DNA of 64,000 nt, taken from the NCBI GenBank assembly GCA_903885795.1, contig CAISJV010000047.1, positions 1 to 64,000 on the forward strand. The letters are read 5' to 3'. Below, piece after piece: positions 3,936-39,850 of the stretch. The notes under the pieces are model-generated. The model was not told where the DNA came from and searched no databases. It worked only from the letters and a program-made list of their open reading frames with translations. The DNA is from an uncultured delta proteobacterium (lineage in GTDB: Bacteria; Desulfobacterota; Syntrophia; Syntrophales; UBA8958). A program made the translations under genes and the position numbers. Within the stretch, counting starts at the first letter, position 1, and each line of letters starts with the position of its first letter.

Positions 3936-5297
3936 TTATTTGTCCACTTTGATCAGCATAGCGTCGCCCTGGGCGTGGCCGGAACAGATACCGCACACGC
4001 CGATGCCGCCGCCTCGCCGTCGTAGTTCATAAGCCAGGGTCATAAGTATCCGTGCCCCCGTGGCGCCGATGGGATGTCCGTAGGCAATAGCGCTACCGTT
4101 GGGATTCACCTTTTTGTACATCTCTTCTTTGCTCATTCCCAGGATGGATCGGGCGCTGACAATGGCCACGGCCGCAAAGGCCTCGTTGATTTCTATTACG
4201 TCCAACTGATCGACGGTCATATCATTCTGATCGAGAATCTTCTTGATGGAAAGCCCGGGCACCGTGGCGATATCCTTGGTCGGCTGGGAAACCTCGGCGT
4301 AATCAAGGATAGTGAAGAGGGGTTTCATTCCCAGCTTGTCGGCCATCTCCTTGCTCATAAGCATGCAAACGTCGCCGCCGTCATTGACGCCGGGGGCGTT
4401 GCCCGCCGTAACGCTGCCAAGCTCCCCAGTCACGGTGCTCTTGTGATTGAAGACGGGGGGGAGCTTCGCCAGACCTTCGATTGTCGTCGCCGGCCTTGGT
4501 CCTTCATCCTTATCAAAAATAATGACTTCTTTCCCTTTCTTGATCTCCACGGGGAAAATCTCGTCGTCCAGTTTTCCATCCTTCATCGCCTTCACGGCGC
4601 TGAGCTGGGATTTGAGAGCCCACTCGTCCTGGTCCTGCCGGGTGAAGCCAAACTCGTCGGACGTCTCAGAGCCGTGGATGGCCATGTGGCGGTTGTAGAA
4701 GGCGTCCCAAAGTCCGTCCAAAACCATCGCATCCACGAGCTTGCCGTTCGGCAATCCCATACGGGAACCCCACCGCATGTCGGGAAGGACATAAGGACAG
4801 TTGGTCATGCTCTCCTGGCCGCCGGCGATGACGATTTCGGCCCTGCCGGTCTGAATCATCTGGACTGCGAGATCAACGGTCTTGATACCGGATGAGCATA
4901 CCTTGTTTACGGTAATGGAGGGAACGCTTTCCGGCACGCCCGCCAGCAAAGTCGCCTGACGGCTCGGCACCTGTCCGCATCCCGCCGGAACAACCTGACC
5001 CATAATGATATAATCTACATCCTCACCCTTAACCTTGCCATTCGTTCTCCGGAGACATTCCTTGATGGCCAGAGCTCCAAGTTGGGGAGCATCAAAACCC
5101 TTCAGCGCCCCACCGAAGACTCCATAGGGGGTCCGACAGGCTTCGACGCAGACCACTTCGCGAAGACCTTTGGAATTGTTTTTGATTTTTCTGCCCATCC
5201 CTGAATAATCCGGTTTCCGCTCGCCGAATTTGGCAATCTTCGCGTCCTTGTAATATTCCTTCCTTGTTTTATCCAACTTCTGTGGTACCTTTTCCAT
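3936..5297 (-). CDS. thiolase (acetyl-CoA C-acyltransferase family) with N-terminal extension
   Basis: First gene of the minus-strand beta-oxidation operon. The nucleophilic Cys is in TVNKVCSSGIKTVDLA and the His in GSAIAYGHPIGATGARIL. The usual C-terminal C-x-G-G-G-x-G is replaced by CGICSGHAQGD: the Cys aligns but two of the three glycines do not. About 45 charged residues (MEKVPQKLDKTRKEYYKDAK...) precede the normal thiolase start. They are probably translated, because the ATG at 5297 has a repeated AGGAGG purine tract directly upstream. The pairing of two different thiolases suggests different chain-length preference or a split between synthesis and cleavage; that is inference. Confidence 0.9.
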   Translation of the reverse strand: MEKVPQKLDKTRKEYYKDAKIAKFGERKPDYSGMGRKIKNNSKGLREVVCVEACRTPYGVFGGALKGFDAPQLGALAIKECLRRTNGKVKGEDVDYIIMGQVVPAGCGQVPSRQATLLAGVPESVPSITVNKVCSSGIKTVDLAVQMIQTGRAEIVIAGGQESMTNCPYVLPDMRWGSRMGLPNGKLVDAMVLDGLWDAFYNRHMAIHGSETSDEFGFTRQDQDEWALKSQLSAVKAMKDGKLDDEIFPVEIKKGKEVIIFDKDEGPRPATTIEGLAKLPPVFNHKSTVTGELGSVTAGNAPGVNDGGDVCMLMSKEMADKLGMKPLFTILDYAEVSQPTKDIATVPGLSIKKILDQNDMTVDQLDVIEINEAFAAVAIVSARSILGMSKEEMYKKVNPNGSAIAYGHPIGATGARILMTLAYELRRRGGGIGVCGICSGHAQGDAMLIKVDK

Positions 5298-12779: not shown

Positions 12780-13520
12780 ATGGCTTACGAAACGATCAGC
12801 ACCGACCAATCCCACGCAGGCATAGGCATTCTGACCCTCAACCGTCCCGATAAGCGCAACGCTATTTCCATTCAAATGCGCCGGGAAATCTCGGCCTGCC
12901 TGAAGTCATGGAAGGATGATCCCACCATCCGGATTCTCATTGTGACCGGCGCCGGCAGTACCTTCACCGCCGGCTTCGACCTCAGTGAATTCAATAAACC
13001 AGGGCTTCTGCATGAACTCTACCAGACATCCTCCGAATATCACCGTGATATCTGGTATTTTCCCAAGCCGACGATCGCCGCCATTAATGGCCCGGCCCTG
13101 GCGGGAGGCTTCGACCTCGTCAAGCTATGTGACATCCGTATTTGCTCTGCTGGGGCCAGATTCGGCCATCCGGAGATCAAATTCGGCGCCCCTACCCTCT
13201 TTACACCCCTCAAGTGGATTGTCGGCGCCGGTCTGGCAAGGGAATTATGCCTCTCCGGGCGGACCATCGACGCTACGGAGGCTTATCGTATCGGGCTGGT
13301 AAATGAGCTGGTGGAGGAGAGCAAGCTGCTGGATCGCGCCCTGGAGATCGCCGGAAAAATCATGGAGGCCCCTCAGTACGCCCTGGAACAGACCAAGCAT
13401 TTCTTTCTCGACAACGCCGACCGGGGATTCGAGGAATCATTCTCCATCGAACATGACAAGGGTTTTCAGGAATTCCTTCTGAAGCGCGCAACGGAGGCCC
13501 TTCAGAAATTGACGCCCTAA
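12780..13520 (+). CDS. enoyl-CoA hydratase/isomerase family protein
   Basis: Crotonase fold, 246 aa. The first oxyanion region is TFTAGFDLSEF and the second is GPALAGGFDLVKLCDIR. Compared with the true hydratase at 841-1623, the first catalytic Glu is replaced by Asp (GGFDL against GGGTEI), the second Glu remains (FGHPEIKFG), and the usual PGxGGTQRL segment is FTPLKWIVGAG. This makes hydration uncertain; isomerase or other crotonase-superfamily chemistry is possible. The start has GGGAGGG 8 bases upstream. Confidence 0.88.
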   Translation: MAYETISTDQSHAGIGILTLNRPDKRNAISIQMRREISACLKSWKDDPTIRILIVTGAGSTFTAGFDLSEFNKPGLLHELYQTSSEYHRDIWYFPKPTIAAINGPALAGGFDLVKLCDIRICSAGARFGHPEIKFGAPTLFTPLKWIVGAGLARELCLSGRTIDATEAYRIGLVNELVEESKLLDRALEIAGKIMEAPQYALEQTKHFFLDNADRGFEESFSIEHDKGFQEFLLKRATEALQKLTP

Positions 13521-13752
13521 ATGATAACGAAGAAATAATCGTGTACCGAAAGATTATTCTTTATCTCAAATAAGTCGAGATTTGCGATAGCGTTTGTGTA
13601 GCAGATTGCTTTTGGTAATAAGGAAATATTTTCAAGGGGAAATGGAATATGCCGATCATTTGGTCCACCTACAAACAAACGAGGAACAGTTGATAACAAA
13701 ATCGTAGATTATCAAAAGAAATCTTCGATAAATCAATGACTCGTAAATAGAA

Positions 13753-16659
13753 CTATTTCACAACAACCAATGGGAAGTCCATCCCGCGTGAATCCACGAC
13801 AGGATACTGGGCCTCCCGCTTGTACTTTTTCGTGATTTCCGGGAGCTGTTCTTCAACGTATCCCATGAGCTTCCTGACGGTCACTGTGTCGGTTCCTCCT
13901 GCCGCCTTTCCTTTCAAACCCTCCAATAGCGTGTAGGTAAAGACGCCATGCCCGAGTTCCTGCGTCTCGGCGGCGAACTGGTCTTTCGTGGAGGCTGCGA
14001 TGACATGCACCCCTGTAGAACGGGAGAGTTGAGAGAGGGCCTTCCTGTCTTCAAAACCACGGAAGGCGATTAGCATGGCCCCGGCTTTACAGGCATCAAT
14101 GACGACAAGTACTTTCTGTGCCTTTATCTGTTTTACGTAGTCCGCAAGTTCTATGGAGGAGATGCCTTTTGTCTTAACTGCCTCTTCCCGTTCCGGATAC
14201 GTCAGCTCATAAGGAATGAAATACCACTTGTCATCGATATTCTCGCCATGTCCCGCAAGGTAGATAAGCACAACATCCTGGGGGCTGGTTTTTTCAAGTT
14301 CTTTCAGTTTGGCGAAGATCGTCGCTTTGGTTGCTTCCTCGTTGAATATCTCTGTTACGTAGACATCTTTGAACAATCCCTTTCCCTTCTCCCGGAAAAA
14401 GGCAATGATCCCCTTAGCGTCAGGTTCCGCATAGGACAGATTTAATGCAGGGTTCTGGTATTTATTCAAACCGACAGCAAAGACATGCAGGGCAATCTCC
14501 TTCTGGGGTGCCGTGAGCTTTACGGTAAGTTCATAGGGGTTTGATTCAGTCCGGTCCCTGCTGAAACCCGTTGCCCGGAAGATGTTCAGACCATCAACAA
14601 GCGTGACGGTATAGGTTTTCTCCGCCACATCGTTCCCGGCTGCAATCTTCAACCCTCGCACTTCTTCGCCTACCACCTTGCCATTGTGATAGAGCCGTAT
14701 CTCGTCTATGCCGCCACCCTTATCCTGGGCTCTTACGGTTATCTTGATCGTATCTGTACTGAATGATGCATCTGGTGTAGGTGAAGTGATCCGCGTTACC
14801 GGGGCCACAAGAACGCCCTTCCTGATATCGGCAAGCTCCTTGACCTCCTTGCCCTGAAGAACTGAAGCTACATAAACGGGATTGAAGAACCGCTCATAGA
14901 AATTATCGATGGAATAGACTGCATTGCCGACCCGCACGTTAAGGTGCTTTGCCCCGTTGGCCGAGGCATTAAAATAGCCCTCCGGGGTGATTGTTATCCA
15001 CTCTCCGTCGGTAAAGCCGATGAACTGGGCAATCTCTTTACCTGTATGGATGTCCCAGATGCGGGTTGTTGCATCCCAACTACCCGACAAAACATACCGA
15101 CTATCCGGACTAAAGGTAACGGAGAATACTACACTTAAATGACCTTGGAATGTCCTTAACTCTTTTCCCGTAGAAACATTCCAAAGTTTCATGGTTTTAT
15201 CAAGACTTCCCGATAAAATATTCTGACCATCTGAGCTGAAAGCAACAGAATAAACTATGGATGAATGTCCCTCAAAAGATCTGACTTCTTTGCTTGTTGA
15301 GATATCCCAAAGTTTCATGGTTTTATCATGACTTCCAGACAGGGCATACCTCCCATCAGGGCTGAAGTTAACAGACGAAATCGAATTTTCATGACCTTTA
15401 AAAGTCCGTAACTCTTTTCCCGTGGTGACGTCCCAAAGTTTCATGGTTTTATCATAACTTCCAGACAGGGCATACCGCCCATCAGGGCTGAAGTTAACAG
15501 ACGAAACCGAATTTTCATGACCTTTAAAAGTCCGTAACCATTTTCCCGTGGTGACGTCCCAAAGTTTCATGGTTTTATCATGACTTCCAGATAATCCATA
15601 TCGTCCATCCGGACTTAAAGCAAAGGATGTATTCCCACTTGCATATCCTTCGAAAGTCTTTAATTCACTTACTGTAAGGATGTCCCAAATCTTCATGGTT
15701 TTGTCAGAGCTTCCCGACAACGCATACCGCCCGTCAGGACTAAAGGCGACAGACAAAACCTTCTCTTTGTGCCCTTTAAAAGTTTTTAATTCTTTTCCTG
15801 TAACGATGTCCCAGATCTTCATGGTGTTATCATAACTTCCAGATAGGGCATACCTCCCATCCGGACTAAAGGCGACGGATGTAACCGGACCTTCATGTCC
15901 TCTAAAAGTCCTCAACTTTTTTCCTGTATCGATATCCCAGATAGAAACATCCCATGGAGTTAAATGATTTTCCCAACTTCCTGACATCACATACTGTCCA
16001 TCTGGGCTGAAGGCGACGGATGAAATGCTGATTACTTTCCCTTCGAAAGTTTTTAATTCTTTTCCTGTAGAGATGTCCCAGATCTTCATGGTGTTATCGC
16101 CGCTTTCTGATAACGCATACCGCCCGTCAGGACTAAAGGCAACAGACCAAACCTTCTCTTTGTGCCCTTTAAAAGTTTTTAATTCTTTTCCTGTAGAGAT
16201 GTCCCAGATCTTCATGGTGTTATCATAACTCCCAGACAGGGCATACCTCCCATCCGGACTAAAGGCGACAGATAAGACCGCTCCACCATAATGCCCTCTA
16301 AAAGTTCGTAACTCTTTTCCCGTTGAAACTTCCCAGAGTTTGAATCCATTAAGATCCCAACTTCCTGACAAAATGTATAGTCCATCCGGACTAAAGGCGA
16401 CAGACGCAACAGCACCTTCATGCCCTTGAAAAGTTCTTAATTCTCTTCCTGTAGTGATATCCCAGATCCTTAAATAACCATCCCAACTTCCTGACAAAAC
16501 GGTCTTCCTATCTGGACTGAATGCAACTGATGAAACATCTTGGATATTTCCTAATTGTACAAATATCTCCGGTTTCTCTGCTGCTACTGCCACACACTGA
16601 AACGTCAGCAAAGCCAACAATATCATCTTGATCATCAACGGATGTTTCTCATCCCTCAT
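13753..16659 (-). CDS. secreted WD40-repeat protein with C-terminal caspase-like (C14) peptidase domain
   Basis: 968 aa. A signal peptide (hydrophobic residues 9-27, AVAAEK cleavage region) is followed by twelve WD40 repeats of about 42 residues (residues 37-548), enough for two propellers. A linker with Ig-like beta features follows (ITVRAQDKGGGIDEIRLYHNG, about residue 640), then a caspase-like domain from about residue 720. The catalytic dyad is readable as His804 in YLAGHGEN and Cys857 in VVIDACKAG. Such proteins occur in cyanobacteria and other bacteria with complex lifestyles; roles are poorly known. The propellers probably bind a partner that controls the protease. The start follows GGAGGGG. 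Repeats 3/6, 4/7 and 9/10 are nearly identical in DNA. Confidence 0.9.
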   Translation of the reverse strand: MRDEKHPLMIKMILLALLTFQCVAVAAEKPEIFVQLGNIQDVSSVAFSPDRKTVLSGSWDGYLRIWDITTGRELRTFQGHEGAVASVAFSPDGLYILSGSWDLNGFKLWEVSTGKELRTFRGHYGGAVLSVAFSPDGRYALSGSYDNTMKIWDISTGKELKTFKGHKEKVWSVAFSPDGRYALSESGDNTMKIWDISTGKELKTFEGKVISISSVAFSPDGQYVMSGSWENHLTPWDVSIWDIDTGKKLRTFRGHEGPVTSVAFSPDGRYALSGSYDNTMKIWDIVTGKELKTFKGHKEKVLSVAFSPDGRYALSGSSDKTMKIWDILTVSELKTFEGYASGNTSFALSPDGRYGLSGSHDKTMKLWDVTTGKWLRTFKGHENSVSSVNFSPDGRYALSGSYDKTMKLWDVTTGKELRTFKGHENSISSVNFSPDGRYALSGSHDKTMKLWDISTSKEVRSFEGHSSIVYSVAFSSDGQNILSGSLDKTMKLWNVSTGKELRTFQGHLSVVFSVTFSPDSRYVLSGSWDATTRIWDIHTGKEIAQFIGFTDGEWITITPEGYFNASANGAKHLNVRVGNAVYSIDNFYERFFNPVYVASVLQGKEVKELADIRKGVLVAPVTRITSPTPDASFSTDTIKITVRAQDKGGGIDEIRLYHNGKVVGEEVRGLKIAAGNDVAEKTYTVTLVDGLNIFRATGFSRDRTESNPYELTVKLTAPQKEIALHVFAVGLNKYQNPALNLSYAEPDAKGIIAFFREKGKGLFKDVYVTEIFNEEATKATIFAKLKELEKTSPQDVVLIYLAGHGENIDDKWYFIPYELTYPEREEAVKTKGISSIELADYVKQIKAQKVLVVIDACKAGAMLIAFRGFEDRKALSQLSRSTGVHVIAASTKDQFAAETQELGHGVFTYTLLEGLKGKAAGGTDTVTVRKLMGYVEEQLPEITKKYKREAQYPVVDSRGMDFPLVVVK
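15016..16551 (-). repeat. tandem WD40-coding repeat array, 12 units of about 126 bp
   Basis: In-frame units of 42 codons (some 43 or 47) inside the caspase gene. Phrases such as CATGGTGTTATCATAACT and the TCTTTTCC stretch recur with only a few changes, most strongly between 15300-15600 and 15660-16270. The conservation at DNA level, including third codon positions, suggests recent duplication or gene conversion among units. Confidence 0.85.
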
Positions 16660-17022
16660 GCGTCCCCTCCTTGCGTACCAGAAGTCAGTATAAATAAATC
16701 AGTGTTTTGATAAGAATTATTTTCGGGGAGAAATATAGAAAAAACCGTATTAAATGTCAAAATAATAATGTAATCTTTACAGGAATTGAAGTCAGCGATA
16801 TACTTCATTACGCATTGAAACAAAGTGTGCCCATCGAAATCACCGGATACTCTCTTTCAGGAAGTTGTTCACGCCCCCAACCATCCAAATAATCACATCA
16901 TAAACCAGCATGTTACAGCCAGTTATCATCAAAACAGGGTAGAGTCAATGATGTTTTTGTCATCGGTTCGCAAGCACAGAATATATTACCTGACGAGTCA
17001 AACGACTTGCCACCGACAATTT
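16660..17022. other. AT-rich intergenic region
   Basis: It holds the promoter of the WD40-caspase gene (listed separately). The remainder, about 16761-17022, has no ribosome site, no RNA-like structure and no open frame that resembles a protein. Confidence 0.5.
16732..16760 (-). promoter_or_regulatory. sigma-70-type promoter for the WD40-caspase gene
   Basis: On the minus strand TTGACA (16760-16755), 17 bp and TATATT (16737-16732) stand about 72 bp before the start codon. This is a near-consensus match. Confidence 0.75.
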
Positions 17023-18474
17023 TTATTCACGACAAATCATGGCGTGCATGGCATCTTCAATCTGTCGTATGGTCTCTTCATCTACTTTACTCCGCCCGGC
17101 AAGAGGTAAGGAAAGCCATGAGTCAAAAACCGGCGGCGCCTGCCCCTGGATTAGATATTCGAGCAGTGAAAATTCATAATAGACCCTGCGGACAGAAAAC
17201 AGGGGATCGTCGCCATAGATAAGGTGGGCCATGGCCCGGGCCAGATCGCATACCTTAAGAACCCAGTCCATGGCCATTCCCGTATAGGATTCAAAATAGT
17301 AAACACCCTCTGATTGCAGCCACTTGCCGTCCTGCTCCAGTTCTTTTTTCACGGGCGTTCCCGGGAAAGGAATCAGGCATTCCGTGTAGGCGATTTCCGC
17401 CCCGTTTTCGAATAGTTCTTTAGCCAGCCGGATCGTTTTCAGCATCGTTTCGACAGTGTCCCAGGGGCCGAAAAGGATGAAACTGACCACGGGCATGAGG
17501 TTCTGTTCGATGCAGTAGGATACGCCCCGTCTCAGATCTTCCGTTGCCATGCCCTTTCCATAGCGGTCCAATATTTCCTGAGCGCCCGATTCTGCCCCCA
17601 CATAAACAGCCTTGAAACCCGCCTCGCTCAGCCACTGCGCCATGACCGGCCGGCGGCAGAAATCGTCTATTCGCCCCTGGACGTAGAATTCGACACCCTG
17701 CACAAGTCCTTCCTGAATCATCATCCCGCAGATCTCCCGGACACGGCGGGGATGAAAGGTGAAATTATCATCGGTGAACATGATCCGTTTTGCCCCGGCG
17801 GACCGCAAGTCCCTGATTTCTGTCAAGATCTTCGCCAGTGGTTCCTGACGGACAATCCCCTGATAGAGGCTTTGAATCGAACAGAAACGACAGTTGTGGT
17901 AACATCCACGGCTGGAAGACAGGCTACGGGTTCGGTATCCCCGGTTATCCAGAATATGGAAAGCAGGCGGTGGCATGTCCCCCAGATCCTTTAGCAGGGG
18001 GCGGTCAGGATTACACACAACACGATGATTTTTGCGGTAACTGATTCCGGAGATTTTTTTTAAGGAAGCCGGTGCAAAATCACTCCTCATGATCTCACGG
18101 AGGGCATCTTCCCCTTCGCCCCGGACGACCACATCCACGTCTTTATTTTCCCTGAGAATCTCCTCGTGAAGGACGGTGGCGTGGATGCCTCCCAGGACAG
18201 TCCTGATGCGGGGATGGATTTTTTTTGCTGTCCCACATGCCGCTAAAGCAGAGGAGAAACTGCTGGAGAGAGAAGTGACGCCCATGATAAGGGGTTTTCC
18301 CCTTTCCAGGGCATCCGTCAAAAGGACCTGGGCTTCCTCCTCGGAACCAATATCCATGTCAACAATAGATACGGAAATTCCATTTGCAAGGAGAGGCGCC
18401 GCCAAGCATTCCAGGCTGAGGGGCGATACCTCCGAGGCACCGTTAAAGCGCGGATTGACAAGCAGAACATCCAT
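17023..18474 (-). CDS. B12-binding-domain radical SAM protein
   Basis: The N-terminal 150 residues form a cobalamin-binding-like Rossmann part (MDVLLVNPRF, LGGIHATVLHEEIL, VVVRGEGEDAL). The radical SAM core follows with the cluster motif Cys191-x3-Cys195-x2-Cys198 (SRGCYHNCRFCS). VYVGAESGAQEILDRYGKG is the usual motif-IV region. The family includes methyltransferases, cyclases and hopanoid-modifying enzymes, and the substrate cannot be told from sequence. Histidine of the base-on cobalamin motif DxHxxG is not obvious. The start at 18474 has only a weak ribosome site. It is downstream of, but separated by a terminator from, the acyl-CoA ligase gene. Confidence 0.88.
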   Translation of the reverse strand: MDVLLVNPRFNGASEVSPLSLECLAAPLLANGISVSIVDMDIGSEEEAQVLLTDALERGKPLIMGVTSLSSSFSSALAACGTAKKIHPRIRTVLGGIHATVLHEEILRENKDVDVVVRGEGEDALREIMRSDFAPASLKKISGISYRKNHRVVCNPDRPLLKDLGDMPPPAFHILDNRGYRTRSLSSSRGCYHNCRFCSIQSLYQGIVRQEPLAKILTEIRDLRSAGAKRIMFTDDNFTFHPRRVREICGMMIQEGLVQGVEFYVQGRIDDFCRRPVMAQWLSEAGFKAVYVGAESGAQEILDRYGKGMATEDLRRGVSYCIEQNLMPVVSFILFGPWDTVETMLKTIRLAKELFENGAEIAYTECLIPFPGTPVKKELEQDGKWLQSEGVYYFESYTGMAMDWVLKVCDLARAMAHLIYGDDPLFSVRRVYYEFSLLEYLIQGQAPPVFDSWLSLPLAGRSKVDEETIRQIEDAMHAMICRE

Positions 18475-24347: not shown

Positions 24348-27300
24348 ATGGCCGGAGTAAAACTTTATACCAGTAACCGTATGGAGGCGCTGAGCAGCAG
24401 CCTTGCGGAATTGCTGCGTAATGATCCACTAAAAGACCCATTGCTGGAGGAAATCGTCATCGTCCAGAGCAGGGGGATGGAACGCTGGCTGTCTCTTGAG
24501 TTGGCAAGCCGCTGCGGGATCTGCGCCAATATCCGATTCCCCTTCCCTATTCATTTTGTCTATGATGTCTTCCGCCATACCTTGGGTAATTTACCGGAGA
24601 CATCCCCCTACGATCCAGCCATTCTCACCTGGAAGATCATGCACCTCCTCCACCGCAACCTGGACGGGGAACCCTTTCAAAGCCTCAGATATTATCTCGG
24701 AGGCGGCGGTATGAATCTCCGCTGCTACCAGCTCTCGGCCCGCATTGCCGGCGTTTTCAATCAGTATCTCCTCTTTCGGCCGGAGATGATCCGGAAGTGG
24801 GAAAGGGGCGAGGAGGACCACTGGCAGGCCCTGCTCTGGCGGAATATGGTGCAAAGCATGGAATCTCCCCATTTAGCGGCTCTCCAGGAGGCCTTCTTTC
24901 AGGGACTTCGGGAGCGAACGCCGGCTTGGCCGAATATGCCCCGGCGAGTTTCCGTCTTTGGCGTCTCCGCCCTGCCCCCCTTTCACCTGAAAATATTAGC
25001 CGCCATTGCCAATTTTATGGAAGTCAACCTTTTTCTCATGAATCCCTCCCGGGAATATTGGCACGATATTGTGTCTGACCGGGAAATGACGCGAATCGCT
25101 GAAAATACAAAGTCCTACGGCCTCTCCGAGGCGGAGGATCTCCACCTGGAACAGGGCCACAGCCTGCTGGCTTCCCTGGGGACATTGGGCAGGGATTTTT
25201 TCCGGATTCTGAATGATTACCCCCTCAGTGAGAAGGCCCTTTTTGAAGAGCCGGGCGAAGAGAATCTGCTGCGGACCATTCAATCGGACATCCTGAATCT
25301 CCGGGAGCGGGGCGGGGAAGGGAAAAAGATGCTGGCAGATGGCGACACTTCCCTCATGGTCCATTCCTGCCACAGTCCCATGCGGGAGATAGAGATCCTT
25401 CAGGACCGCATCCTATCCTTCTTTGCTGCCGACCCCGGCCTGAAACCGGGAGATATCCTGGTGATGACGCCGGACATAGGGTTATACGCCCCCTTCATCC
25501 AGGCAGTATTCTCTCTTCCCTCGGATGACCCCCACTGGCTTCCCTTCAGCATCGCCGATCGCAGCATCCCTCAGGAAAGCACCCTGATAAAAACTTTTTT
25601 CCGTCTTCTCGCCCTCCACGGCAGCCGCTTCCCGGCCTCCGAGGTCTTCGATATTCTCTCAACACCGGCAGTCAGGGAAAGATTCTCCCTTTCTGAGGCC
25701 GACCTGCACGAGATTCATCACTGGTTGCAGGATACGGAGATCCGCTGGGGAACCGACGCCGAAAGCCGGGGGGAGATGGGATTACCCCCCCTCCCCTGGA
25801 ACACCTGGCGGGCGGGACTGGAGCGGCTCCTCCTTGGTTATGCCCTGACCACCCCGCAGGAAGACCGACTTTTTCATGGCATCCTGCCCTATAACCAGAT
25901 AGAGGGAAGTGTTACGGACATCCTTGGTCGCTTTCTGAACTTCACTGATACTCTCTTTAGTTCCGTTTCCGCCCTGGGCGAACAAAGAACACTCCGGGAC
26001 TGGGCTGAATATCTCATTGATTTTTCAGATAACTTCTTTGCCGCGACGGAAGAACGACTCCGCGATGTTCAGTCCCTTCGCCACAGCCTTCACAAACTGG
26101 CCGATCTTCAGGAGCGGTCAGGATTCCCGGAGCGTATTCCCCTGGAGACTATCCGGGAATGGCTTAAAGAAAATCTCGCCGGTCAGGCTTTCGGTACGGG
26201 CTTTCTTACCGGGGGCGTCACTTTCTGCGCCATGCTGCCCATGCGGAGCATCCCCTTCCGGATCATCTGCCTCCTTGGCATGGGGGATGATTCCTATCCA
26301 CGCCGGTCTTTCGCACCCGGCTTCGATCTGATAACGAAACATCCCCGCCCGGGTGACCGTTCCCTCCGGAACGACGATCGCTATCTGTTTCTCGAGGCGA
26401 TCCTTTCGGCCCGGGACAAGCTCCATATCAGTTTCGTGGGGCAGGATATCCGGGATAACAGCTCTCGTCCCCCGTCGGTGCTGGTGAGCGAACTTTTAGA
26501 CAGCATCGAGGAAGGATTTGAATTCGCCCAAGGGGAAATCCGCGCCAGGCTGGTGGTGAAACATCCCCTCCAGGCCTTCAGCCCCGCCTACTTCGGGTAT
26601 AATCCGCAACTATTCAGCTATTCCCGTGAGAATGCAGCCGCCGCCCGGCGCGCCGCCGGGAAGAGGGAAGATCCTCTGGCCCTGATCTCCGCCGGCCTTC
26701 CCGAGGCAGGAGAGGAATGGAAAACGGTGAGCCTGTCCGCCCTCTGCCGTTTTTTTATAAATCCCGCCCGGTATCTCCTCCGGGAGCGCCTCGGCATCCG
26801 CATGGAAGACGATGGGGTCATCCTGGAGGATAAGGAACGTTTCACCCTCGACAACCTTGAAAAGTACCAGCTCCGCCGGGAACTTATCGACCAGGGACTC
26901 TCCGGCCCGGGCATCCCGAACCGGCAAGAAACGCTCCTCGCCGCCGGGCGTCTCCCCCACGGCAATCCGGGCATTTGCAGCTATGAAGACCAGCATCGTT
27001 CCGCAACCGCCTTCCTCACCCGCCTTGCCCCCCTGGCTTCCGGCCCCCGGTTGGCCGACCTGGTTATCGACGGCGCCATCGGCCCCTACCACCTGACCGG
27101 AAGGATCGAACATCGCTACGAACATGGGGTCATCCATTTCCGTCCCGCCAAGGTCAAAGCCAATGACCGCTTGCAGATCTGGATCACCCATCTCTTCCTC
27201 CACCTGGCCCCGGATTCCGAGGCCCGCCGCCAAAGCACCTATATGGGAGAAGACATGACGTGCCGATATCATCCCCTGTCGAATCCTGAGGAGCACCTCG

Positions 27301-27575
27301 CGAAACTGCTTGCGATCTACTGGGAGGGCCTCCATCATCCCCTCCATTTTTTCCCCCGCACCTCTGCGGCTTACGTGGAAGCAATCTTTAATGGCAAGGA
27401 CGAGGCGACAGCCATGAACGCAGCGCTGGGCAAATGGGACGGGTATATGGAAAAGGAGCGGGAAGATCTCTATTTCCGTGCCTGTTTCCGAGACGTGGCC
27501 CCCATGGATAAAGTCTTCAAGGAGCTCTCCCTGGGTATCTTCTTACCCATACTGGCTTTAGAAGAAAGGCTCTGA
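24348..27575 (+). CDS. recC: exodeoxyribonuclease V gamma subunit (RecC)
   Basis: Non-catalytic helicase-fold subunit of RecBCD that splits the duplex and recognises Chi. 1075 aa, close to the 1122 of E. coli. Signature segments: LYTSNRMEALSSSLAELL, VQSRGMERWLSLELA, ANIRFPFP, RVSVFGVSALPPFHLKIL, ILVMTPDIGLYAPFI and FRIICLLGMGDDSYPR. It is separated from recB and recD by three unrelated genes on the same strand, but the trio is complete in the window. Confidence 0.96.
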   Translation: MAGVKLYTSNRMEALSSSLAELLRNDPLKDPLLEEIVIVQSRGMERWLSLELASRCGICANIRFPFPIHFVYDVFRHTLGNLPETSPYDPAILTWKIMHLLHRNLDGEPFQSLRYYLGGGGMNLRCYQLSARIAGVFNQYLLFRPEMIRKWERGEEDHWQALLWRNMVQSMESPHLAALQEAFFQGLRERTPAWPNMPRRVSVFGVSALPPFHLKILAAIANFMEVNLFLMNPSREYWHDIVSDREMTRIAENTKSYGLSEAEDLHLEQGHSLLASLGTLGRDFFRILNDYPLSEKALFEEPGEENLLRTIQSDILNLRERGGEGKKMLADGDTSLMVHSCHSPMREIEILQDRILSFFAADPGLKPGDILVMTPDIGLYAPFIQAVFSLPSDDPHWLPFSIADRSIPQESTLIKTFFRLLALHGSRFPASEVFDILSTPAVRERFSLSEADLHEIHHWLQDTEIRWGTDAESRGEMGLPPLPWNTWRAGLERLLLGYALTTPQEDRLFHGILPYNQIEGSVTDILGRFLNFTDTLFSSVSALGEQRTLRDWAEYLIDFSDNFFAATEERLRDVQSLRHSLHKLADLQERSGFPERIPLETIREWLKENLAGQAFGTGFLTGGVTFCAMLPMRSIPFRIICLLGMGDDSYPRRSFAPGFDLITKHPRPGDRSLRNDDRYLFLEAILSARDKLHISFVGQDIRDNSSRPPSVLVSELLDSIEEGFEFAQGEIRARLVVKHPLQAFSPAYFGYNPQLFSYSRENAAAARRAAGKREDPLALISAGLPEAGEEWKTVSLSALCRFFINPARYLLRERLGIRMEDDGVILEDKERFTLDNLEKYQLRRELIDQGLSGPGIPNRQETLLAAGRLPHGNPGICSYEDQHRSATAFLTRLAPLASGPRLADLVIDGAIGPYHLTGRIEHRYEHGVIHFRPAKVKANDRLQIWITHLFLHLAPDSEARRQSTYMGEDMTCRYHPLSNPEEHLAKLLAIYWEGLHHPLHFFPRTSAAYVEAIFNGKDEATAMNAALGKWDGYMEKEREDLYFRACFRDVAPMDKVFKELSLGIFLPILALEERL

Positions 27576-27678
27576 AAGAGGGGGATTAAATGCTCGTCAA
27601 TTGACTGTTTTTTAAAAGTATGCAAGATTACAATCCGTTATCAAAGATCCGAACTTTTTCTGTTACACTGGAGACACT

Positions 27679-29523
27679 ATGAAAAAGATCCACCTGATCA
27701 CGGGAATTATTCTCCTGGTGTTCATGGCCGCAACCATTGCCGGAATGCTGGGAACCCGGGATCCCGGACCGGGCGCCGAACCATCGGCCAAGCCGGCGAA
27801 GAGGGGCGCTCCTCCCGTGAAGGAACGTTTGGTGGATACGCGGCTCCTCCTGACTGCCCGGCACCTGGCGACCCTGGCTACGGCGCTGGAGGAGAGCGAG
27901 TTTGCCCAACAGGCCCTAAGATTGGCCGACCACGAACTGGATCTGGCCTTGGCCGATTCGATCCGCAGAGCCGTCGAGAATCCTTCCGCACCAAGTCCTG
28001 AGATCAAGGCCATCCTGGCGCTGAGGGATAAGGGGCAGGACGCAGTGGAAGGCGACCAGCAGCGTATCAAAGCAATCGAGAAACAGTTGGCCAGCTCCCA
28101 GGAACAGGATCGTGAGGGCCTCGAAGACCAGTTGGAAGTGGCCAAGGCCCAGATCGAACTTGACAAAAACGAGTTGGAAGAAGCCCAGGACGACTTGGAT
28201 CGTGCAGGTGGGGATGTCCCGGCTAAAATCCGCCGCCTGAAGGCAGCCTATGAGGCCGCCCAGGTGGACACCTCCTTGATCGCAGATAGCAAGAATGCGT
28301 CTGTTTCGCAGTTTTCTCCCGGCAGCCTGGTTGCGCGGATCTCGATGTGGTCGTGGCATCAGTCCAAGCTGGCAAAGCTCCGCCAGGCTCAACAGGAAGC
28401 CCAGACCAAGATCGAACGCATGAGCAAGCGGCGTGACGCCTTAGCGCAGCAGATCAAACTGGCAAAAGAAGAGCGGGAAGCGGCCAAACGCAAGGCCACC
28501 AGTTTCGCCCGAGGAGACCTGAAAGGGGATGGCGAATCATCCAAGGAACTTTCCAAGACCACTCTCCAAACCCTGAAGCGCTTCATGAGTGACCAGCGGA
28601 CTCTGGCCGACCTGAGCAAACGGCTTCAGTTTGTCAAGGACCTGGCAGAGGTCTACGGAAGCTGGACGGCCGTGGTGGAAACACACCGTCGTTCGGCCCT
28701 GCACCAGATGCTCAAGTCCCTGATGGCGATCCTGTCGATCCTGGGCGTAATGTTCTTCGGAAAGCTGCTCGTCGAGCATTTGTTCACCGGCGCTGCCAGG
28801 GCGAGAATCAGCGCCGGAACCCTGCAGACCGTGGCTAACTTCGTGCTTCAGATCCTGGGCGTCCTGGTGATCCTCTTCGTGGTCATCGGCGTGCCCACCC
28901 AGCTGACGACCATTCTCGGCCTGGCTGGTGCGGGCCTTACCGTGGCCATGAAGGACTTCATCGTTGCCTTCTTCGGCTGGTTCGTACTGATGGGCAAAAA
29001 CGGCATCCGCGTGGGGGACTGGGTCGAAATCGATGGCGTGGCCGGCGAGGTCGTGGAGGTCAACCTGCTCCGAACCATCCTGCTGGAAACTGGCGGCCTG
29101 ATCGATTCCGCGCACCCCACGGGCCGGCGGGTGGCTTTTGTGAACAGCTTCGCCATCGAGGGGCACTTCTTCAACTTCTCGACCTCGGGCCAGTGGATGT
29201 GGGATGAGCTGAAGGTGGCCGTTCCTTCCGGACAGAATCTTTATCCCTTTATTGACGCCATCAGAAAGCAGGTGGAGGAAATGACCCAGGACAACGCGAA
29301 GATCGCCGAACGGGAATGGCGCGGCACAACCAAGCGCTATCGTGTCCAGTCATTTTCGGCCGTGCCCCGGATCAGCGTGGTTCCCATCGCCAACGGCATC
29401 GAACTCCACGTAGGCTATATTACCCGGGCCTACGAAAGCCATGAAACCCGCACCCGGCTCAATCAGTCCCTCGTGGACCTGATGCACGGGAAGCGGCCCG
29501 GTGAAGCCGACACCAAGGCCTGA
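27679..29523 (+). CDS. mechanosensitive channel, MscS family, with periplasmic coiled-coil
   Basis: A signal-anchor (residues 4-24) is followed by about 270 residues of charged heptad-like coiled coil (for example QRIKAIEKQLASSQEQ and AQTKIERMSKRRDALAQQ), then transmembrane segments from about residue 345. The pore-lining TM3 is readable as LGLAGAGLTVAMKDFIVAFF, and the beta domain starts at GIRVGDWVEIDGVAGEVVEV. This is the MscS core (PF00924). The large extracytoplasmic part is like that of MscK/YnaI-type relatives. It lies between recC and recB without functional link. Confidence 0.9.
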   Translation: MKKIHLITGIILLVFMAATIAGMLGTRDPGPGAEPSAKPAKRGAPPVKERLVDTRLLLTARHLATLATALEESEFAQQALRLADHELDLALADSIRRAVENPSAPSPEIKAILALRDKGQDAVEGDQQRIKAIEKQLASSQEQDREGLEDQLEVAKAQIELDKNELEEAQDDLDRAGGDVPAKIRRLKAAYEAAQVDTSLIADSKNASVSQFSPGSLVARISMWSWHQSKLAKLRQAQQEAQTKIERMSKRRDALAQQIKLAKEEREAAKRKATSFARGDLKGDGESSKELSKTTLQTLKRFMSDQRTLADLSKRLQFVKDLAEVYGSWTAVVETHRRSALHQMLKSLMAILSILGVMFFGKLLVEHLFTGAARARISAGTLQTVANFVLQILGVLVILFVVIGVPTQLTTILGLAGAGLTVAMKDFIVAFFGWFVLMGKNGIRVGDWVEIDGVAGEVVEVNLLRTILLETGGLIDSAHPTGRRVAFVNSFAIEGHFFNFSTSGQWMWDELKVAVPSGQNLYPFIDAIRKQVEEMTQDNAKIAEREWRGTTKRYRVQSFSAVPRISVVPIANGIELHVGYITRAYESHETRTRLNQSLVDLMHGKRPGEADTKA

Positions 29524-29651
29524 GGCGCGGGCGCAACTTCACTCGGAATTATTTCAAACCAACTTCAAGCATTCCGGCCAGCAGGGCATCATAATTGAGG
29601 AAGCGAGCCTCATAAGATAAAATTGACAAAATATTCAAGGAGGAGAAAGAA

Positions 29652-30047
29652 ATGACGGATCTTAAAGATTTCAAGGGAACAGTCATGGAGCTGCTCGGGA
29701 TAGAGCACCAGGAAATAACAAAAGAAAAGATTGTCTTGACCATGCCGGTGACTCCCAAAACTCATCATCCTTGGGGATCTCTTCATGGAGGGGTATCAGT
29801 TGTCCTTGCCGAAACAGCGGCAACCATGGGTGCAGTTATGAATATAGACCAGGAAAAACAGTTCGCTGTAGGCCTTGAAATAAACGCCAACCATATCCGA
29901 CCCAAGAGAGAAGGAATTCTCAACGCAACGGCGACTCCTGTCCACATTGGCCATGCCGTTAGTGTTTGGGACATCCGGATCATCGACGAGAAGGGAAATC
30001 TGATTTGCACATCCCGCTGTACATTGGCCATCGTCGACAAGAAATGA
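29652..30047 (+). CDS. PaaI-type hotdog thioesterase
   Basis: 131 aa. The hotdog helix with the acidic nucleophile is WGSLHGGVSVVLAETAATMG (Glu54), followed by GLEINANHIRPKREG. This is typical of PaaI/MenI-like acyl-CoA thioesterases hydrolysing aryl- or polycyclic-acyl-CoA. The ATG has an AAGGAGGAG site 8 bases upstream. The next gene follows closely and may be co-transcribed. Confidence 0.9.
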   Translation: MTDLKDFKGTVMELLGIEHQEITKEKIVLTMPVTPKTHHPWGSLHGGVSVVLAETAATMGAVMNIDQEKQFAVGLEINANHIRPKREGILNATATPVHIGHAVSVWDIRIIDEKGNLICTSRCTLAIVDKK

Positions 30048-30077
30048 GTATTGAAGGTTAAGAAAAAGGAGAGTAAA

Positions 30078-31175
30078 ATGGTAAAGGATGCACTTTTAAA
30101 TCCGATAAAGATTGGGCGATATGAACTCCCGAATCGCGTCTTCATGTCTCCGATGACACGAAGTCGTGCGGACAACTCTGAAAACGTTGCGACACCACTC
30201 ATCGCCGAATACTATTCCCAGCGGGCCTCCGCTGGTCTCATCATCAGCGAAGGCTCCCAAGTCTCAAAACAGGGCGTCGGTTATATCAATACCCCGGGGA
30301 TTCATAGCCAGGCCCAGGTTGAAGGCTGGAAGCAGGTTACCCGGGCCGTGCATGACAGAAATGGCCACATCTTCTGCCAGCTCTGGCACTGCGGCCGAAT
30401 GTCCCATCCCGATTTTCACAACGGTCAGCTACCAGTGGCGCCTTCTGCGATCAACCCCAGGGATAAATCCTTTACTCCCGATGGTTTCAAGGATACGGTA
30501 ACGCCGCGTGCTCTGAGGGTGAGCGAAATTCACGATATTACGATGGACTTCAAAAAGGCGGCTGAAAATGCAATCGCCGCTGGTTTTGATGGTGTAGAAA
30601 TCCATTCAGCCAATGGGTATCTTTTTCATCAGTTCTTTACCAACTGTTCCAATATCCGCACAGATGAATACGGCGGCAGTCACGAAAACAAGGCACGCTT
30701 TTTCTTTGAAACCATCGACACCGTGGGTGGAACCATCGGTTTTGAAAGAGTGGGAATTAGGTTGAATCCATCAGCCCACGGTTTCTTCGGCATCACGATT
30801 GACCAAGATACCATCCCCACATTTGAGTATATTGTGGAGCGACTAAACGACTACGGGAATCTTGTCTACGCCCATCTTGTCGAACCCATGGCCCCCGTGG
30901 ATCAAGTTCCCTATGCGGTGAAGGAAATCGCAAAACATTTTCGGCCCCGTTACAATGGCACCCTGGTGATTAACTGTAGATTCAACCTTGACAGCGGCAA
31001 CCGGGTCCTGGAGGAGGGCCTTGCTGATGCGGTCGCTTTCGGTAAACCATTCATATCGAATCCTGATCTTGTCGAGCGCATCCGTCGCGGGTCAGGCTGG
31101 GCAAAATGGGATGAAAATACTTTTTATACTCCCGGAACAAAAGGTTATACGGACTATCCAGGACTTGACGGATAA
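30078..31175 (+). CDS. Old Yellow Enzyme-family NADH:flavin oxidoreductase
   Basis: FMN TIM-barrel reductase of activated C=C bonds or nitro compounds (NemA/OYE group). The N-terminus LLNPIKIGRYELPNRVFMSPMTRSRA, the FCQLWHCGRMSHPD segment, the EIHSANGYLFHQFF active region and DEYGGSHENKARF are all typical. I start at the ATG at 30078, with AAAAAGGAG directly upstream, instead of an upstream TTG. It may act with the thioesterase on CoA or aromatic intermediates, but both families are broad. Confidence 0.92.
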   Translation: MVKDALLNPIKIGRYELPNRVFMSPMTRSRADNSENVATPLIAEYYSQRASAGLIISEGSQVSKQGVGYINTPGIHSQAQVEGWKQVTRAVHDRNGHIFCQLWHCGRMSHPDFHNGQLPVAPSAINPRDKSFTPDGFKDTVTPRALRVSEIHDITMDFKKAAENAIAAGFDGVEIHSANGYLFHQFFTNCSNIRTDEYGGSHENKARFFFETIDTVGGTIGFERVGIRLNPSAHGFFGITIDQDTIPTFEYIVERLNDYGNLVYAHLVEPMAPVDQVPYAVKEIAKHFRPRYNGTLVINCRFNLDSGNRVLEEGLADAVAFGKPFISNPDLVERIRRGSGWAKWDENTFYTPGTKGYTDYPGLDG

Positions 31176-31207
31176 ATCATTGTAAATGAAACTCATTAAG
31201 ATGCCTT

Positions 31208-34200
31208 ATGAATAAATCCCGTCCTTTCGATCTTGTCCACAGCCCCCTGGCCGGGGCCAACCTTATCGAGGCCAGCGCCGGGACTGGCAAGACCTACGCC
31301 ATAACCGCCATTTTTCTCCGGCTCCTTCTGGAGCAGCAGCTAAATGTCAGCAATATTCTAGTTGTCACCTACACTGTGGCGGCGACGGAGGAGTTGCGGG
31401 ATCGCATCCGCCGGCAGATAAGAGCGGCCATCGTCGCCATGGAAGGCGGGACCACCGAGGACAAATTCATCGGGGATCTCATCAGGAATATTGTCAATCC
31501 CGGGGAAGGGCTTCTCCTCCTGAAAGCGGCCCTCCGGAATTTCGATGAGGCCCCCATCTTAACCATCCACAGCTTCTGCCAGCAGGTACTGCGTGAGCAC
31601 GCCTTTGAAAGCCTGAGTCTCTTCGATACGGAACTGATCACCGATGAAAGACCCCTGTCAGAAGAAATCGTCGAGGATTTCTGGCGCCGCAACTTCTACG
31701 GAGCCGCACCGGAGTTCATCCGTTACGCCCTGGAGAAGAAATACGGCCCCGACATTTTCCTGAAGATAACCAGGAACTCTCTCTCCCAGCCCGATGTCCG
31801 GATTCTACCTGAGATCCAACCATTAGAGCTGCATTCCCTGGAACCATTTCGCGATACCCTGAGCAAAGTAAAGACGTCCTGGGGTGCAGCCGCACCCGAC
31901 GTCATTGACAAGTTGAAGAGTCCGGGATTGAACAAGGCATCGTACAAAAACCCCGACGTCCTCATTTCCCTCATGGATCAATGGCTAAATGGGGAGGGTG
32001 GCTTCCCATCCTTCCCCGGCCTGGAGAAATTCACCCCCGGCTTTTTGAAGGAGAAGACCAATAAGAACCGGCAGACGCCGGAGCATCCTTTTTTCGATCT
32101 CTGCGGCGAGTTATGGAATATTTCCCAAATCCTGGCGGAGGAAATGGACCGCCAGCTTCTTTATCTCAAGACAGAGATGTTCCGCGTCCTGCGCCGGGAG
32201 CTGCCCCTCAAGAAAGAGCAGCAAAACATCCAGTCCTACGATGACCTCCTTATCCGGGTCCGGACAGCCTTGGAAAAACCCGGCGGAGAAGCCCTGGCCC
32301 ACGCCCTGCGCGGGCGCTACCACGCCGCCCTCATCGACGAATTTCAGGACACCGACCCGGTTCAGTATGCCATTTTTCAGACCGTCTTCGGCAGGGACAG
32401 CATTCTCTTCCTCATCGGCGATCCCAAACAGGCAATTTACAGTTTCCGTAGCGCCGATCTCTTTTCTTACCTCCGCGCCTCCCGGCAGGTTCAGAATCGC
32501 TATAGCTTGACCCATAACTGGCGCTCCGAACCGGGCCTCGTCGCGGCGATCAACCATGTCTTCGCCGCCCCCGGGCAGTATAACCGTGAACCCTTTGTCT
32601 TCGCCGAAATCCCCTTTCAGGCCGCTTCCGGTCGGGAAGACCTGGACCGTCCACCTTTGACGCTTTCCGGCGATGCGAACGCCCCTTTTCAACTCGTCTA
32701 TATAGACAAAGAACGCCTCACCGGGGCCAATGCCACCGGAAACAAGGAAAATTTCCGCCGCCTGATCGCCGGGGCCGTAGCGGAAGAAATCTCCCGCCTC
32801 CTGTCACTTGCCCGGCAGGGAAAGGCAAATATCGGCGCCTCGCCACTACAGCCTGGTGATATAGCTGTCCTTGTCCGGGAAAACCGTGAGGCCCGCCTAG
32901 TCCAGGAGGCCCTCCATGAGCTTGCCATTCCCTGCGTTCTCCATGGCGCGGGAAATATTTTTGATTGTCCGGAGGCACTGGAGATGGAGCGCCTCCTTAC
33001 CGGCATCGCCGAACCACGCAGTGAAAGGGCACTGGGAGCGGCCCTGGTAACAGATATCATGGGCGTCAGCGGCGAGACCCTGATGTCCGCCAAAAGGGAG
33101 GAGCGTCCGTGGGAGGCCTGGGTAAACCGCTTTCAGGAGTATAATGACCTCTGGGAAGAAGCAGGTTTCATCCACATGTTCCGGACCCTCCTGAGAAACG
33201 AGGATGTCCACCCGCGGCTGTTAGGCTATCGCGACGGGGAAAGAAGGCTTACCAACCTCCTCCATCTGTCGGAAATCCTCCATAATGAATCCTCAGCACA
33301 AAAAATGGGCATGGCGGGGCTGATCAAATGGCTCGCCCGGCAGCGGGACCCGGCCGCAACCCGTTTGGAAGAGCACGAGTTGCGCCTGGAGAGCGATGAC
33401 AACGCCGTCCGTCTCGTAACGATCCACAAAAGCAAGGGCCTAGAATATCCGCTCGTCTTCTGCCCTTTTCAATGGGGATCGTCGCGGATGAGAAAAAACG
33501 AACTACCGCGCTATCATGACGGTCAGGACGATTGGCGATTGAACCTGGTCCTTTCCGATGAACATCAGCAGGCGGTCATCCTGGCCGAGCGGGAAGCCAT
33601 GGCGGAAAATATCCGGCTCCTCTACGTAGCCCTGACCCGGGCGAAATACCGCGCCTATCTGTACTGGGGACCATTCAAGGATGCAGGCAGTTCCGCCGTC
33701 GCCTACACTCTTCATCCGGCCCCCGGCGCCTCTCACCCTCAACCTCACACTTCCGGAGACATCATGGCGGGAGTAAGTAATCCATTATTCACCCATACCC
33801 TTCTTCCGGCGGAAAAGACAGGATGGGACATTGTCGATACTACAGAAAACCATTTTCTCGCTCTTACGGACACTCATCTCCGCCAAGATCTGACGGCCCT
33901 AATGGACCGATCCGGGGGGACCATCCAGATAATAGCCTTTGCCAACCTGCCGGGCATCCCCTACCAGAAACCGCCCGAAACTGCCGTCCCTTCCACCGGA
34001 CTTACCTTCACCGGACGGATTCCCCGAGCGGACCGGGTTGCCAGCTTTTCCTATTTCATCGCCCACAAGGAGGATGAACTTGACAAAGCCGATCGTGATC
34101 ATGCCCCGTCGACCGGCGAATCAAACCGCGCGGCCATATTCGCTCCTTCCGCGCCTTCCCCCGGTCGCAAGTCACCATCGGAATCAACTGACGCACCCGA

Positions 34201-34948: not shown

Positions 34949-34957
34949 AGTCCTAAA

Positions 34958-39655: not shown

Positions 39656-39850
39656 AACATCGCTGGTCACAAAGATTCCAGGTCCAGGATGACGCCAATG
39701 GGCGAGGGACAGGCCACGCAGGCAGACGCATAAAGCACCTCAATGAGCCGATAATGAATTCTGTTTGGGCTGATTTGGAAAATAAACAGTAAAAGAAAAA
39801 AATACACCCGATCATCTTTTCATTCAATTAGACGAATGGGAGCAATGTTG

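Follow-up and report, generated by a model that had tools for sequence, protein, structure and literature searches.

We describe an apparently exported caspase homologue encoded in a 64,000-nucleotide stretch of DNA (the window; part of contig C47, CAISJV010000047.1, in the 4.0-Mb draft genome of an uncultured delta proteobacterium of the Syntrophales), in which a WD40-repeat sensor is joined through a linker and an Ig-like domain to a caspase domain. The protein is a bacterial caspase homologue and so of an already known kind; our tentative reading, which may well prove wrong, is that it acts outside the cytoplasm as a sensor-protease whose recognition face evolves fast, probably for use in conflict. 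A first-pass annotation, made from the letters of the window, had reported a secreted WD40 protein with a His804/Cys857 caspase dyad at 13753-16659; its coordinates and dyad positions proved exact, and the open reading frame (ORF) there encodes 968 residues.

Sensor and effector parts of these proteins are largely decoupled. Of the 147 pairs whose caspases are at least 60% identical, 11 reach that level in the sensor as well, 2 lie at 50-59% there and the other 134 at 20-49% (counts read from histograms, which omit sensor parts shorter than 250 residues or caspase alignments of fewer than 200). The clearest case of a sharp border is a pair of proteins from two families of the order (G001:C17 and G035:C59) that are 95% identical in the caspase, 90% in the linker and Ig-like domain and 42% in the sensor; along the chain, identity is 68-73% in the first hundred residues, 15-49% in the rest of the WD40 part and 86-100% from the linker onward. 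Among the matches listed from open-access papers, no title or abstract start described such decoupling in exported WD40 caspases.

Variation within the sensor is itself concentrated. The five most variable of the 42 repeat positions are 36, 40, 38, 37 and 14. For the fungal HET-D/HET-E proteins, the literature, which throughout this text is cited by PMC number from excerpts, gives repeat positions 10, 11, 12, 14, 30, 32 and 39 as those with high ratios of nonsynonymous to synonymous substitution rates (dN/dS; PMC12222747); another numbering places them at codons 7 and 9, within the d-a loop, and at codons 25 and 27, within the b-c turn, with a consensus residue between the members of either pair (PMC1805685). 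We matched the numberings ourselves, anchoring them on the latter description, and the fungal positions then map to positions 36, 37, 38, 40, 14, 16 and 23 of the window repeat. All five of the most variable window positions fall within these seven; positions 24 and 33 are variable yet lie outside the fungal set, and position 23, inside it, varies little. For the ten repeats that fit the 42-residue pattern, the ratio of nonsynonymous to synonymous differences per site (pN/pS) is 1.20 at the seven face sites against 0.28 elsewhere, a face value reached by none of 41 rotations and none of 300 random sets; the 0.28 reflects strong purifying selection on scaffold sites. All 12 repeats together give 1.07 against 0.30, and eight chosen inner repeats 1.33 against 0.20. 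Three other family proteins behave similarly, with face values of 0.91, 1.02 and 0.81 against 0.26, 0.36 and 0.39 elsewhere, values matched by no rotation out of 41 in each case and by 3, 9 and 3 of 300 random sets; seven of the 11 proteins tried were dropped because fewer than five of their repeats fit the pattern, which left four.

The sensor that carries this face is built of twelve repeats, as the first-pass annotation had it: Pfam matches 12 WD40 stretches and a motif scan finds exactly 12 units, spaced by 42 residues save for two spacings of 44 and 47. A full-length AlphaFold2 model, built from three sequences (mean predicted local distance difference test score, pLDDT, 71.2; predicted template modelling score 0.47), has about 48 strands across the WD40 part, which fits 12 four-stranded blades. 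Modelled residues 35-329, the first ring, match complete seven-bladed propellers (Z about 46-48, root-mean-square deviation, rmsd, 1.0-1.1), and the top structural match over residues 30-557 is 2ymu, which we take to be a double propeller (Z 48.0, rmsd 5.8, 509 residues aligned). In the second ring (residues about 330-557) five WD40 blades are clear, and its closure is modelled at low confidence; we infer that the linker may complete it, and pLDDT falls below 50 at residues 549-573 and 579-635, in the linker region. Of the two propellers predicted at first pass, then, one is supported as a complete ring and the pair by the whole-sensor match, while closure of the second stays at low confidence. 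No NACHT or STAND NTPase was found among the best 25 of 60 Pfam families matched by the whole chain, or in a scan of residues 540-968, and residues 30-557 align with propellers. Identity between the repeats averages 61% and reaches 95% (66 repeat pairs), and a repeat's best match inside the protein is on average 70% identical, whereas best matches to nine other proteins average 49-66%. The case for concerted evolution of these repeats is nevertheless weak, because most of the other proteins lack the pattern, short hits counted as zero and the window's own repeats supplied the repeat model.

The effector, by its conserved residues, is likely to be an active protease. Scanned alone, the C-terminal part matches PF00656 at 59.7 bits (cut-off 21.4) and, before the caspase, a Big_7 Ig-like domain that the first-pass annotation lacked (38.7 bits, cut-off 24.1). 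The dyad reported there is intact and aligns with the family: when the window's linker-to-end sequence is aligned with 48 others, all 49 rows have D855 and C857 and 48 have H804, the remaining row having Tyr. Asp855, which we take to be an S1 pocket residue, stands two before the catalytic Cys and is compatible with specificity for Arg or Lys; such specificity is described for orthocaspases (PMC6426788). Modelled alone (mean pLDDT 62.9), the C-terminal part is closest in fold to the MALT1 paracaspase (4i1r; Z 20.8, rmsd 2.7, 199 residues aligned, 16% identity); plant metacaspases and human caspases are among the matches ranked next, and the predicted structure contains a caspase fold with large and small parts. 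By sequence, a search for a solved homologue of the caspase part gave nine hits at E 0.18 or worse, none of them a caspase, and the profile of the EACC1-associated caspase (NF047832) scored 80.1 bits, below its cut-off of 140.

The N-terminus consists of basic residues, a hydrophobic core and an AxA-type site, so that by eye MRDEKHPLMIKMILLALLTFQCVAVAA/EK resembles a Sec signal. No stretch of the chain is more hydrophobic than this core, whose 19-residue mean is 2.25; past residue 40 that mean does not exceed 1.63. At a single threshold, an N-terminal hydrophobic segment is present in 41 of 45 complete family ORFs (the window's own, its paralogues, those of related genomes and those on two named contigs). 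Among control ORFs taken at the same loci, a mechanical six-frame choice that includes wrong starts and probably false ORFs, the figure is 67 of 187. Four family ORFs have low N-termini: C20, near a contig end and with no signal; those of G002 and G017, probably through over-long start calls; and G007:C245, which has none. The window protein has two Cys residues, one within the signal and the other catalytic, which leaves the mature chain with the catalytic Cys only; past residue 60, Cys makes up 0.40% of family ORFs and 0.99% of controls. Because the Sec-like N-terminus, the hydrophobic core, the segments in the family and the low Cys content all point the same way, the protein is very probably exported, as the signal peptide claimed at first pass implied, and its location would be periplasmic. 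The same annotation had called export unexpected for a housekeeping enzyme, which is partly right, but by these N-termini export appears to be the normal state of the WD40-caspase family in the genomes examined and no peculiarity of the window gene. Caspase homologues that may bear signal peptides are also published: PMC3501461 reports transmembrane helices in 104 of 671 prokaryotic caspase homologues, notes that most of the 98 classed as membrane proteins have an N-terminal helix that might be a signal peptide, and discusses extracellular roles.

Table 1. The WD40-caspase gene, its parts and its insertion site (window positions)
Feature	Position	Strand	Basis or remark
Complete gene, WD40 - linker - Ig-like - caspase protein, 968 residues	13753..16659	-	ATG start, intact ORF
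N-terminal signal sequence, about residues 1-27	16579..16659	-	by eye; core MILLALLTFQCVAVA, likely cleavage after AVAA
12 WD40 repeats, residues 46 to about 540 (starts at 46 to 515)	15040..16524	-	Pfam and motif scan
Conserved linker past the last WD40 repeat, residues about 541-619	14803..15039	-	family comparison; family-wide
Big_7 Ig-like domain, residues 620-686	14602..14802	-	profile match
Caspase domain (Peptidase_C14), residues 728-958	13786..14478	-	profile; His804, Asp855, Cys857
Sigma-70-like promoter, TTGACA-17-TATATT	16732..16760	-	consensus match only, 11/12 positions
Insert between two convergent genes, 3,502 bp	13521..17022	.	
Left flank, enoyl-CoA hydratase family gene	12780..13520	+	97% identical in G005, 94% in G001
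Right flank, B12-binding radical SAM gene	17023..18474	-	86% in G001, 84% in G005

The gene (Table 1) lies in what looks like an insertion site. The gap between the hydratase and radical SAM genes measures 3,502 bp here, 61 bp and 3,359 bp in two genomes of the same genus (G001 and G005) and 365 bp in G007; in G008 and G010 the two genes overlap by 4 bp. The insert is AT-rich, as had been said of the gene's surroundings (GC content 0.445, against 0.531 for the window), and among 242 stretches of 3,502 bp taken every 250 bp the only one as low in GC overlaps it. It contains no other ORF of at least 100 residues and none of integrase size; each end being scanned alone, a 14-nucleotide inverted pair was found on the right and none on the left. 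We read the insert as a single-gene cargo gained into the site between these two genes, though loss in relatives may stand in place of gain in the window's genome. An AAGGAGG-like Shine-Dalgarno site lies, by eye, immediately 5' of the ATG. The strong promoter of its own that the gene had been credited with does match the consensus at 11 of 12 positions; promoter-like sites number 6, against a mean of 6.1 in shuffled sequences, so they are not enriched and "strong" is only plausible.

In relatives the gap offers one site with one defence cargo, a hint that falls short of proof. In G005 it holds an AIPR protein, identified as AbiU by PADLOC (514 bits), followed by MazE-like and PemK/MazF-like genes; this locus (L083, G005:C180, 2659-6019) equals the window's insertion site and is a possible defence hotspot. 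Both ends of the insert in G005 have, by eye, stretches in common with the short gap of G007, which has the look of a remnant. Next to the radical SAM gene of G006 come a 177-residue ORF that matches no Pfam family, a MazE-like gene that at 22.2 bits misses the cut-off of 24.7, and a methyltransferase, and the hydratase was not found within the 6 kb read at the radical SAM gene; a partial PADLOC match of that methyltransferase to mad2 (55 bits) was set aside as a shared methyltransferase fold. By PADLOC the window gene fits no known anti-phage system, having no strong component match and no partner ORF of at least 100 residues in the insert. Elsewhere in the window, a RecBCD-like set (RecC, a UvrD-type helicase and RecD; 24348-36850) is ordinary, and a sulfate permease family protein is fused to a cyclic-nucleotide-binding domain (39836-42064).

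A survey for conserved neighbours yielded no recurring partner. Clustering of 411 ORFs that neighbour 58 family genes gave no cluster wider than six genomes, a span reached by one that is acyl-CoA-ligase-like, judged by its member in the window, and an operon partner was rejected on this ground. Among the 88 nearest neighbours (complete ORFs of at least 150 residues within 1.5 kb, chosen mechanically), no Pfam family was seen in more than three, considering the best 25 of 145 by member count; the commonest, with three each, are ordinary enzyme families except for DUF4384, and CHASE2 matches two. Two DUF4384 proteins with signal-like N-termini are encoded directly downstream of a WD40-caspase, at a distance of 4 bp in G039 (L072 6920-7795) and 19 bp in G026 (L075 8825-9676), which belong to two families. 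Genes joining CHASE2 to an adenylate/guanylate cyclase were likewise confirmed downstream of WD40-caspases in two families (L074, G036:C213, 2821-4962; L125, G058:C99, 5270-7363). Second caspases adjoin the family gene in a few genomes.

Caspase domains are widespread among the 60 genomes searched, the window's own included: PF00656 matches 37 of them, and a linker-Ig-caspase query matches 31 and adds own-genome copies such as that on C11. The own genome has 14 PF00656 matches, two of which are overlapping pieces on C54 (L064, about 4495-5147), where the match runs over two overlapping frames, a frameshifted gene or an assembly error. It also carries four shorter caspases with hydrophobic N-termini and SGHGAP ... 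DSCFSG motifs, three in tandem (L066, G000:C67, 3536-14879), and a fifth of this type on C21 (L062 2268-3611). Elsewhere (L072, G039:C41, 7799-15461) two WD40-caspases stand in tandem, one intact and the other, of 1413 residues, apparently a pseudo-enzyme whose catalytic His is replaced by Tyr.

In the tree the window gene groups with the own-genome paralogue on C20 (98/96), to which it is 77, 65 and 51% identical in the three parts, within a five-row clade that includes two copies from G039 and one from G008. The seven same-genus genomes contain no match above 40% to its effector part. C-terminal identity is 70-73% in G039 and G008; G036 and G026 reach 84-86%, but over fragments at contig ends. 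Full-length relatives among 17 named loci occur in a Nitrospirae assembly (L021, 41% over the best segment) and a Spirochaetaceae assembly (L015, 39%). Transfer from identity alone was rejected, PcnB being 67% identical in G039 and 66% in G008 and enolase 62-91% in relatives; because identity is no proof, the argument for transfer is built on the gene's absence from the genus and on the nearly empty site. Carriage on a mobile element was rejected as well: phages gave one record at 27% and plasmids 30 records, all below 60%.

The mechanism that we envisage for such an exported sensor-protease begins with Sec export, which would take the chain out of the cytoplasm. Outside, the twelve blades would form the modelled double propeller, whose top face may bind a protein ligand; binding would be relayed through the linker and Ig-like domain to the paracaspase/metacaspase-like protease, which by analogy with orthocaspases, and because Asp stands two before the catalytic Cys, would be expected to cut after Arg or Lys outside the cytoplasm. 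The recognition part would change fast, by duplication and replacement of repeats, and the linker-Ig-caspase part would be kept, a pattern to be expected if a receptor is engaged in the envelope in biological conflict with phages, competitors or non-self; the gene itself would have entered, as single-gene cargo, a site occupied in a relative by AbiU and a MazEF-like pair. We lean towards the protein being a recognition receptor; a role in conflict or defence is possible and held with less assurance. The earlier suggestion of ligand sensing and of defence or programmed death draws support from the AbiU/MazEF-like gap, the sensor-effector decoupling and the focus of variation on the face; it is held back by the neighbours, of which no PADLOC family matches more than two. 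A bolder version, unlikely as it stands, would make exported caspases an extracytoplasmic counterpart of the NLR immune receptors: a horizontally moving effector cassette (linker, Ig-like domain and caspase) would recombine with changing WD40 double propellers, their face under diversifying selection, and uncultured bacteria would thereby own an envelope receptor repertoire in which detection of invaders leads to proteolysis beyond the cytoplasm.

Several points weigh against a receptor for conflict. The identity pairs are not independent, differing repeat numbers can shift a global alignment out of register, and close pairs with little or no decoupling exist (88 and 82% for G047/G033, 84 and 80% for G004/G002, 79 and 86% for G037:C58/G025:C41, 79 and 72% for G017:C43/G041:C119); because of these, decoupling is not automatic. 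At the face the bootstrap range of pN/pS is 0.82-1.59, not clearly above 1, so that selection above neutrality there is not established; adjacent repeat pairs give 0.97 at the face against 0.28 elsewhere, synonymous change between repeats is near saturation, and in any WD40 protein the binding face may vary from blade to blade for ordinary reasons. The insertion site rests on a handful of genomes. Twelve PADLOC families match the 88 neighbours at E of 1e-20 or below, each with one or two members (the one with two is a Pycsar cyclase), so nothing marks a defence island; the PADLOC "caspase" match of the window gene itself is weak and partial (45 bits), and eight pattern stretches in viral contigs gave no confirmed relative.

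A rival reading is an envelope protease for quality control, signalling or development, whose propellers would dock on a host envelope complex and which would process host proteins with no part in conflict. Its spread through the order and the want of a recurring defence neighbour suit that role, and the DUF4384 and CHASE2-cyclase genes beside some copies suggest envelope signalling; a CHASE2 sensor gene beside WD40 genes is also published for Nostoc (PMC5587647). Such a role predicts conserved sensors and stable presence, however, and most sensors are not conserved, the same-genus genomes lack a close match and the site is almost empty in G001, so that we consider it unlikely.

Export could instead serve a secreted weapon or nutrient protease that cuts the proteins of neighbouring cells, its propellers binding prey or debris. 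The export signal, unmatched in hydrophobicity by any other segment of the protein, and the large number of paralogues in one genome whose N-termini look signal-like by eye would fit, and a fratricidal option for extracellular caspase homologues has been raised (PMC3501461); yet with no other ORF of 100 residues the insert has no immunity or secretion gene, and we think this improbable. Least probable of all, in our estimate, is mostly neutral cargo, a weakly selected, fast-diverging repeat gene spreading with its insertion site: the low-GC insert, patchy presence and internal repeat duplication are what it would leave, whereas the invariant catalytic Cys and Asp, the constrained scaffold and the intact ORF speak against it. 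If an exported sensor-protease with a variable face is the right reading, a widespread class of exported proteins that combine a conserved protease with replaceable sensors would move part of the question of what bacterial caspase homologues do, a function still largely unknown (PMC3501461), to the cell envelope, where it is testable; the variable face predicts where to seek ligands, and the single Cys eases active-site labelling.

Among known systems, the nearest in composition are the bacterial caspase homologues (orthocaspases or prokaryotic metacaspases) with WD40 repeats, in which the C14 domain, the His/Cys dyad and possible N-terminal signal peptides are common features. WD40 is the most frequent partner domain in PMC3501461 (73 of 671 homologues); the WD40-bearing types in the excerpt carry NACHT or TPR, whereas here the WD40 part comes first, behind an export signal, and is followed by linker and Ig-like domain, an architecture that may be among the other types of that paper. 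MALT1 (caspase-Ig3), the best fold match, likewise has an Ig-like domain adjoining a paracaspase-type protease; the window protein differs in being bacterial and apparently exported, in carrying the Ig-like domain before the caspase and in its low identity. The sensor recalls fungal HET-D/HET-E, where 11 repeats are usual, against 12 here, and a double propeller has been proposed too (PMC12222747); the window repeats are likewise partly homogenised and variable at equal face positions. Those fungal proteins have NACHT and HET domains, whereas here a protease is fused directly and the chain is apparently exported. Prokaryotic WD40 proteins with high internal identity are published, "highly repetitive" meaning in PMC5587647 that six of eight contiguous repeats are pairwise at least 70% identical; the mean in the window protein is 61%. 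The best match to the sensor in both structure and sequence remains 2ymu, a WD-40 repeat protein of the PDB described as a "highly repetitive propeller structure", whose 577-residue chain aligns with the sensor nearly end to end and leaves no room for a protease domain.

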